A stretch of DNA of 64,000 nucleotides. Origin: Candidatus Blochmannia vicinus. GTDB taxonomy: Bacteria > Pseudomonadota > Gammaproteobacteria > Enterobacterales > Enterobacteriaceae. Below are positions 62,352-64,000 of the stretch, in pieces; position 1 is the first letter of the stretch, and each line of letters opens with the position of its first letter. The notes beneath the pieces were generated by a model that saw nothing but the letters and a program-made list of their open reading frames with translations, had not been told where the DNA came from and did not search any database. The stretch is taken from assembly GCF_023586525.1 (NCBI RefSeq), contig NZ_CP097763.1, positions 714,502-778,501 of the forward strand, given 5' to 3'. The translations under genes were made by a program, and so were the position numbers.

Positions 62352-63095
62352 ATGAATATCTTTGATTTACTTTTAGAAGCTGATATTTTAGTACAAATTA
62401 GTATATTCATTCTACTTGGATTTTCTATTTTATCTTGGAGTGTTATCTTCCATCGTGTTTTTACACTTAATATAGCTCATAAAAAATTAAAATTATTTGA
62501 AAATGAATTTTGGTCTGGAATAGACTTGGCTAGTCTATATCAAAAATCTTTATCTCGTCGTAATAAATTAAACGGCGCTGAACAAATTTTTTATGTAGGT
62601 TTTAAAGAATTCTCTAAGCTATATCAAATGAAACGTTGTTCATCTGAAACAATAATATCTAGAACACTAGATACTATGCATACTGCAATAAATATAGAAC
62701 TAAAAACCTTAGAAGATTACATCCCGTTGATTGGTACAATAGGATCCATTAGCCCATATCTTGGTTTATTTGGAACCGTATTAGGAATTATGCATGTTTT
62801 TGTCGAATTAGGTAAAACTACCAATAATACTGCTACTCAGATAATTCATTTACAAATCATTGCACCAGGTATTGCTGAATCATTGATTGCTACAGCAATT
62901 GGCTTATTCGTAGCTATTCCATCAGTTATGGCATTTAATTATTTAACTACACAAATAAATAATTTAGATCAAGATTATAATAATTTTATAGATGAATTTA
63001 TCACAATTCTATATCGTCAAATTTTTCTTAATATTGACTCTGTGCTAAATAAGGAAAATAAACATGAAGAAACAGAGAATAAAACGTGCTATTAA
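62352..63095 (+). CDS. tolQ: Tol-Pal system proton channel subunit TolQ
   Basis: 247 residues (E. coli 230), three membrane helices (about 15-35, 140-160, 175-200). Typical ETIISRTLDTMHTAINIELKTLE, GTIGSISPYLGLFGTVLGIM and AIGLFVAIPSVMAFNY. Forms the force-generating complex with TolR, energising TolA for outer-membrane constriction at division. Its end overlaps tolR by 32 nt. Confidence 0.95.
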   Translation: MNIFDLLLEADILVQISIFILLGFSILSWSVIFHRVFTLNIAHKKLKLFENEFWSGIDLASLYQKSLSRRNKLNGAEQIFYVGFKEFSKLYQMKRCSSETIISRTLDTMHTAINIELKTLEDYIPLIGTIGSISPYLGLFGTVLGIMHVFVELGKTTNNTATQIIHLQIIAPGIAESLIATAIGLFVAIPSVMAFNYLTTQINNLDQDYNNFIDEFITILYRQIFLNIDSVLNKENKHEETENKTCY

Positions 63096-63489
63096 GTCAG
63101 ATATTAACATCATACCGTTTTTAGATATATTATTAGTTCTTTTAATAATTTTTATAATAATACCGTCTAAATTAATACAAAGCTTTGAAGTAAACCTTCC
63201 AAACAGTGAAGTAGCAACAAATATTATCAATAATGAAAAACTTATAATGACCATTGAAATTTTAGGAATGGGACTTTATAATCTGATAATTAATAATAAA
63301 CACATAAAGCAAATATGTCTAAATCAAATTTCATCAGAAATAAGTCATCAAATATATATTACCCCTAATATTACATGCCTAATTGCTGCATCTAAAGCCG
63401 TAGCATATGATGAAATCATTAAAGTGTTAAGCTTACTAAGCAACATTGGTGTACATTCTATTGGAATGATAACGAATCCCACCACTTAG
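63064..63489 (+). CDS. tolR: Tol-Pal system protein TolR
   Basis: 141 residues (E. coli 142). Single membrane helix with the proton-path aspartate Asp21 in IIPFLDILLVLLIIF, followed by a periplasmic domain. AAGGA lies 8 nt before the ATG. Part of tolQRA. Confidence 0.94.
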   Translation: MKKQRIKRAIKSDINIIPFLDILLVLLIIFIIIPSKLIQSFEVNLPNSEVATNIINNEKLIMTIEILGMGLYNLIINNKHIKQICLNQISSEISHQIYITPNITCLIAASKAVAYDEIIKVLSLLSNIGVHSIGMITNPTT

Positions 63490-63515: not shown

Positions 63516-63758
63516 ATGAAATTAGTGCATTTACTTAATAAATATAATAAAAAATTCATATTTTCTGTTATAATATCAATTATTATACATGCAGTTATGT
63601 GTTTATTATTAAATAAACACATAACTGCAAAACACCAACAGTATGCTAGCAATACCATTGATAACAAAGGCTCAGTCAATACTTTTATACAAATGCCTGA
63701 TACAAAGATAGAAAAAAAGAAAAATCAAGATCAATCAAATCGATTCAAAATAACATAA
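63516..63758 (+). CDS. tolA: TolA N-terminal part, ended by an in-frame TAA
   Basis: 80 residues to the stop. An N-terminal membrane anchor (about 14-32, FIFSVIISIIIHAVMCLLL) after a basic MKLVHLLNKYNKKF fits TolA domain I; position after tolQR agrees. The stop (63756-63758) falls inside the first of several 90-bp repeats; the same frame is open again from 63759 to the window end, and the other copies have GAA at this place. Either a point nonsense mutation (truncated or decaying gene), readthrough, or an assembly/base-call error. Domain III, which binds Pal and TolB, is beyond the window. Confidence 0.8.
   Translation: MKLVHLLNKYNKKFIFSVIISIIIHAVMCLLLNKHITAKHQQYASNTIDNKGSVNTFIQMPDTKIEKKKNQDQSNRFKIT
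63590..63629. repeat. Hairpin inside the tolA membrane-anchor codons
   Basis: 18-bp perfect arms (63590-63607 / 63612-63629) with a 4-base loop (ATTA). It encodes AVMCLLLNKHITA of TolA. Confidence 0.85.
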
Positions 63759-64000
63759 ACACAACGTCCGTTGGAAGGACGCACGATCAATACCATCCCT
63801 GAAAAAAAGAAAAATCAAGATCACTCAAATCGATTCAAAATAACAGAAACACAACGTCAGTTGGAAGGACGCACGATAAATACCATCCCTGAAAAAAAGA
63901 AAAATCAATATCAATCAAATCGATTCAAAATAACAGAAACACAACGTCCGTTGGAAGGACGCACGATCAATACCATCCCTGAAAAAAAGAAAAATCAACA
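63711..64000 (+). repeat. 90-bp tandem repeats in tolA (30 codons per unit)
   Basis: Three complete units (63711-63800, 63801-63890, 63891-63980) and 20 bases of a fourth before the window ends. Each begins GAAAAAAAGAAAAATCAA and differs from the others at only a few bases. In the tolA frame a unit reads EKKKNQ.., then SNRFKITETQR, LEGRTINTIP. Copy 1 has TAA instead of GAA at codon 16. The other two frames contain stops in every unit, so the tolA frame is the coding one. The units replace the Ala/Lys-rich helical domain II of E. coli TolA. Confidence 0.95.

Follow-up and report, generated by a model that had tools for sequence, protein, structure and literature searches.

A stop codon in the repeat linker of tolA in a deposited Candidatus Blochmannia vicinus genome is very probably an assembly artefact

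The 64,000-nucleotide stretch of DNA analyzed here (the window) comprises bases 714,502-778,501 of the single-contig genome of Candidatus Blochmannia vicinus (778,501 bases), and its end is the end of the contig. The tol gene cluster is found at this point in the order tolQ-tolR-tolA-tolB-pal, with tolB and pal located at the start of the same contig. It comprises the following features:

62352..63095, plus strand: tolQ, intact, 247 aa (NCBIfam TIGR02796, 260.5 bits against a cut-off of 221)
63064..63489, plus strand: tolR, intact, 141 aa (Pfam ExbD/TolR, 52.4 bits against a cut-off of 25.4)
63516..64000, plus strand: 5' part of tolA, encoding the N-terminal region and the repeat linker (the 3' part is at the contig start, L005:1-497)
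63711..63998, plus strand: tandem array with a 90-bp unit, 3.2 copies as deposited, a number that the assembly does not fix (TRF, 95% match)
63756..63758, plus strand: in-frame TAA in array copy 1, judged to be an assembly artefact
63970..64000, plus strand: 31 bp that recur exactly as the opening 31 bp of the contig (L005:1-31), an untrimmed k-mer overlap at the linearisation point (end comparison)

The best NCBIfam matches of tolR are TolR models, all of them under their cut-offs. As listed, tolQ and tolR overlap by 32 bp (63064-63095). The C-terminal part of tolA (L005:3-497) is recognized by both PF06519 (103.8 bits, cut-off 25) and TIGR02794 (95.2 bits, cut-off 59.45), and no Pfam or NCBIfam TolA model matched the 80-aa N-terminal open reading frame taken alone. 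The tolA translation has a hydrophobic stretch after its start; an N-terminal membrane helix is reported for other Blochmannia TolA proteins (PMC4389277).

This 80-codon frame runs from the ATG at 63516 to the TAA at 63756-63758, which is the sole stop of the tolA frame within the array. The preliminary description of this locus had noted the TAA in the first repeat against GAA in copies 2 and 3, a frame otherwise open on both sides, and stops in every unit of the other two frames, and all of this is borne out by the deposited letters, the open reading frames and the comparison of copies. The other two forward frames are closed at 63751, 63841, 63877 and 63931, and at 63800, 63890 and 63980, respectively (each full unit or its junction holds one stop or more). 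The tolA frame is open from the TAA to the window end, and then from the first bases of the contig across the C-terminal TolA domain. Because the frame stays open across both contig ends, we reject a simple pseudogene with frameshifts further downstream. If the ends are overlapped, the 485 bases in the window and the 466 bases past the overlap amount, by arithmetic on the two separate halves, to 317 codons including the final stop and one internal TAA. The deposited letters do not give an uninterrupted frame from the anchor to the C-terminal domain, the interruption being the very TAA that we judge to be an artefact. A literature search on Blochmannia tolA and stop codons returned no title on a TAA in this tolA.

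The overlap of the contig ends falls inside the tolA array. As both ends share exactly 31 bp, the deposited contig is probably 31 bp too long. We compared 14 genomes of Blochmannia, which are symbionts of carpenter ants, including the one that contains the window (G000, 778.5 kb; others include G010 with 780.6 kb and G003 with 746.3 kb). In a scan of genome contigs B. floridanus was the sole Blochmannia among the matches listed, together with four weak matches to other bacteria. The same exact 31-bp end overlap is present in 7 of the 14 genomes (G000, G001, G003, G008, G009, G010 and G011), and a comparison of the last and first 300 bases showed no end overlap of at least 8 bp in the other seven. 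The contig of G001 also ends in the tolA array, and that of G007 ends in tolA without an overlap. The array of G012 (L040, minus strand) contains an exact 31-bp duplication with differing bases flanking each copy, and its frame is shifted. This contig starts beside a reading frame that we take, by eye, to be dnaK, and so it seems to have been rotated; the duplication is most simply read as an end overlap left untrimmed.

These overlaps lead us to infer that k = 31 was used for these records. The record of B. vicinus appears to belong to a published set (CP097749-CP097765) of Blochmannia genomes built with MinYS from NovaSeq 6000 reads (PMC9251289). The same source reports five Blochmannia genomes of Tanaemyrmex ants of 775-781 kb and a B. 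ocreatus genome of ∼746 kb, and its main text does not contain the word "tola". It names BioProject PRJNA839641. MindTheGap is described as filling gaps by a search for paths that connect k-mers in a de Bruijn graph (PMC7671366).

The tolA arrays of the 14 genomes fall into several kinds. In G004, G002, G013 and G005 the copies are 99-100% alike, the longest exact repeats reach 436, 277, 417 and 265 bp, respectively, and the array frames are open. We call these the older records because their unit length and copy number match the published tolA table (B. pennsylvanicus, floridanus, vafer and turneri; PMC4389277). In the k=31-type arrays of G000, G010, G012 and G001 the longest exact repeats are 62, 51, 73 and 31 bp, respectively. 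The array of G010 consists of two units with an open frame, and that of G001 (L042) has an in-frame TAA and an in-frame TAG, both in copy 4. The tolA array looks broken in 3 of the 14 records (G000, G001 and G012). A single unit was assembled in G008, G009 and G011 (L041, L044 and L046), which are related to G004 with its six identical units; this single unit may be real or it may be a collapsed array. TRF detected no array of such kind in G006 and G003. The TolA linkers of 12 of the 14 genomes share a recurring short core motif, R[FL]K[IL], often as part of QSNRFKIT (L039-L053; it is absent in G005 and G006), despite differences in unit length and in the remainder of the unit; one of the six matches in G013 is out of frame.

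The three full copies of the B. vicinus array differ at five places (63756, 63824, 63859, 63878 and 63909), and all five differences are transversions. The same holds for 12 of 12 differences among the five copies of G001 and for 3 of 3 between the two copies of G010, which makes 20 out of 20. These counts leave out the array-exit bases: in G000 this is a transversion at 63999, and in G001 a transition at the final base of the contig. The background is very different: the alignment of G000 with G010 over ∼64 kb, with the array left out, contains 4085 transitions and 1391 transversions (75% and 25%). Against this background the chance of five transversions out of five is 0.001 and that of 20 out of 20, taken as independent, is ∼1e-12. 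The spectrum of these differences resembles that of read errors and not that of mutations. In the two-color chemistry of the NovaSeq, T is green, C is red, A is both and G is neither (PMC13218037), so that an error in one channel would always be a transversion, and the changes in these arrays would all be of the one-channel kind. The excess reported in the same source is of T>G/A>C, and alone it would not lead one to expect the G>T change that makes the stop.

The spectrum also bears on the reading that the stop is a true minor variant, carried by some chromosomes or copies, and that the assembler happened to choose its path. Polymorphism within a sample can persist in MinYS graphs (PMC7671366), and multiple paths were merged by coverage in the published set (PMC9251289), which would give such a variant a way into the record. 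However, real variants are expected to be mostly transitions, and 20 out of 20 differences in three genomes are transversions, so that we consider this reading very unlikely.

The differences are also unusually spaced in G001, where they lie 31-39 bp apart. A minimum of at least 31 was obtained in 0 of 200,000 random placements (13 places, with the last contig base, which is the exit, included both in this list and in its chance counts), and none of 5000 random arrays had a longest exact repeat as short as the 31 bp of this genome. The differences in G010 are likewise not closer than 31 bp, for three differences only, and this arose by chance in 67,372 of 200,000 placements. The smallest gap in G000 depends on polarity. 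Measured against the majority copy, the gaps are 68, 35, 19 and 31 bp, the one of 19 bp being shorter than 31; when G010 and G012 are used for polarization, which was decided post hoc, they are 32, 36, 35, 50 and 59, with a chance of 2330 in 200,000. Five random differences would commonly leave a longest exact repeat like that of G000 (in 2308 of 5000 arrays it was as short or shorter). Its length of 62 bp means that the path uses some 31-base words more than once and does not strictly avoid revisits at k = 31.

We simulated a random sequence with eight identical 90-bp copies and read errors, which was traversed by a random walk in a k=31 word graph (this is not the algorithm of MindTheGap itself). 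At 1500-fold coverage the exit was reached in 12 of 3000 walks with two-color errors and in 2 of 3000 with uniform errors, and the smallest spacing was at least 31 in all 14 exit-reaching paths. At 500-fold there was no exit-reaching path under either error model. The all-transversion outcome of the two-color simulation holds by construction.

These observations point, with high confidence on our part, to the in-frame TAA being an assembly artefact, produced when a short-read k-mer graph was stepped through the repeat. In this organism tolA would encode an ordinary full-length TolA, with a linker formed by near-identical 90-bp units in tandem. The deposited sequence would come from a de Bruijn-graph assembler or gap filler working with 31-base words, for which identical repeats become a loop, and a second lap that does not reuse words would be possible only through words bearing a read error. 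The reported copies would then contain single miscalls, separated from one another by roughly one word length or more, one of which spells TAA; the T at 63756 would itself be such a miscall. In G001 a like process would place a TAA and a TAG in one copy. It counts against this explanation that the T-bearing words would have to have passed the abundance filter. The array as such is real and has already been described; its length and the sequence of its copies in this strain are not fixed by the assembly. Of the four options that had been offered in the preliminary description, it is the artefact in a repeat array that gains from the 31-bp overlaps, the transversion-only differences, the spacing and the simulation. 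The premise of its title, that a tolA copy carries a genuine stop, is probably wrong; in other words, the TAA is true of the deposited letters and probably false of the organism.

Loss of TolA function, the first of the other options, is a matter of selection on the two parts of the gene. Using the Nei-Gojobori method, we obtained dN/dS values for two pieces of tolA, an N-terminal one of 65 codons and a C-terminal one of 154 codons. They are 0.28 and 0.13, respectively, against G010, and 0.32 and 0.21 against G012, values that would not reveal a very recent loss. The corresponding values against G010 and G012 are 0.18 and 0.13 for tolQ and 0.23 and 0.09 for tolR, and that of tolB is 0.14 (against G010 only). 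Purifying selection thus acts on both ends of tolA. On the C-terminal piece its strength is similar to that on tolQ, tolR and tolB, and on the N-terminal piece, the least constrained, it is somewhat weaker. Loss of function is unsupported on these grounds, and TolA function is probably kept. The C-terminal TolA domain is present in 14 of the 14 Blochmannia genomes. Moreover, 44 of the 48 open reading frames of G010 (at least 100 aa, in the compared stretch) have full-length matches in the window; the four exceptions are tolA, tolB, which lies past the contig end, and two at the left edge of the window, one outside it and one straddling it. All three results argue against a genuine stop that would make tolA a recent pseudogene in this lineage, even if a very recent loss would escape the first of them. 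This reading can appeal to the TAA as it stands in the deposited sequence and to the variable presence of genes among Blochmannia (PMC9251289), and we regard it as highly improbable.

A genuine stop could also be bypassed by readthrough, by a suppressor tRNA or by a downstream restart, given that the frame is open past the stop and that a TTG lies downstream of it at 63771. There are 39 Rfam tRNA matches in the genome, 38 of which were typed by ARAGORN, none with a stop-codon anticodon; the 39th (L102) has the anticodon CGU, as read by eye from the alignment. Suppression or readthrough, as proposed earlier, thus finds no stop-codon-reading tRNA among these matches, and the terminator of tolA is itself a TAA. 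Translation restart fares no better, because its product, the C-terminal domain, would be left without a membrane anchor. The probability that we assign to any such bypass is next to negligible.

A further possibility is that some chromosomes truly carry the stop and that the array acts as a reversible switch, in which recombination between near-identical copies removes or restores the unit with the stop. The symbiont population would then hold both full-length and truncated TolA. We consider such a switch extremely unlikely.

If the TAA is an assembly artefact, as we favor, it constitutes a warning rather than a discovery. In three of the 14 records the break in tolA seems to be of technical origin, and at this locus such records could mislead gene-loss counts, selection tests and copy-number comparisons. 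The combined signature of all-transversion differences, a spacing of about the word length and a contig-end overlap of that same length could serve to flag other false pseudogenes of this type.

Tandem repeats of 80-100 bp in tolA were reported in five of the six Blochmannia species then sequenced, with units of 81-102 bp in 4.4-6.5 copies (Williams and Wernegreen 2015, PMC4389277), and the array described here has in common with them the gene, the location of tandem repeats in the linker and a lineage-dependent unit. In B. vafer the tolA repeat was a gap in the Illumina assembly (PMC3017870), which means that the same kind of repeat has broken a short-read graph assembly before. In that case PCR gave the size of the gap and Sanger sequencing closed it, whereas no such step was found in the accessible text on the MinYS set (PMC9251289). 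The four genomes that match the table of PMC4389277 have open arrays, in contrast to the present one, the copies of which differ by transversions and include one TAA. The closest likeness within the comparison set is to G001 and G012, where tolA also looks broken inside the array of a k=31-type assembly; they differ from G000 in the bases affected and, for G012, in having a frame shift rather than a stop.
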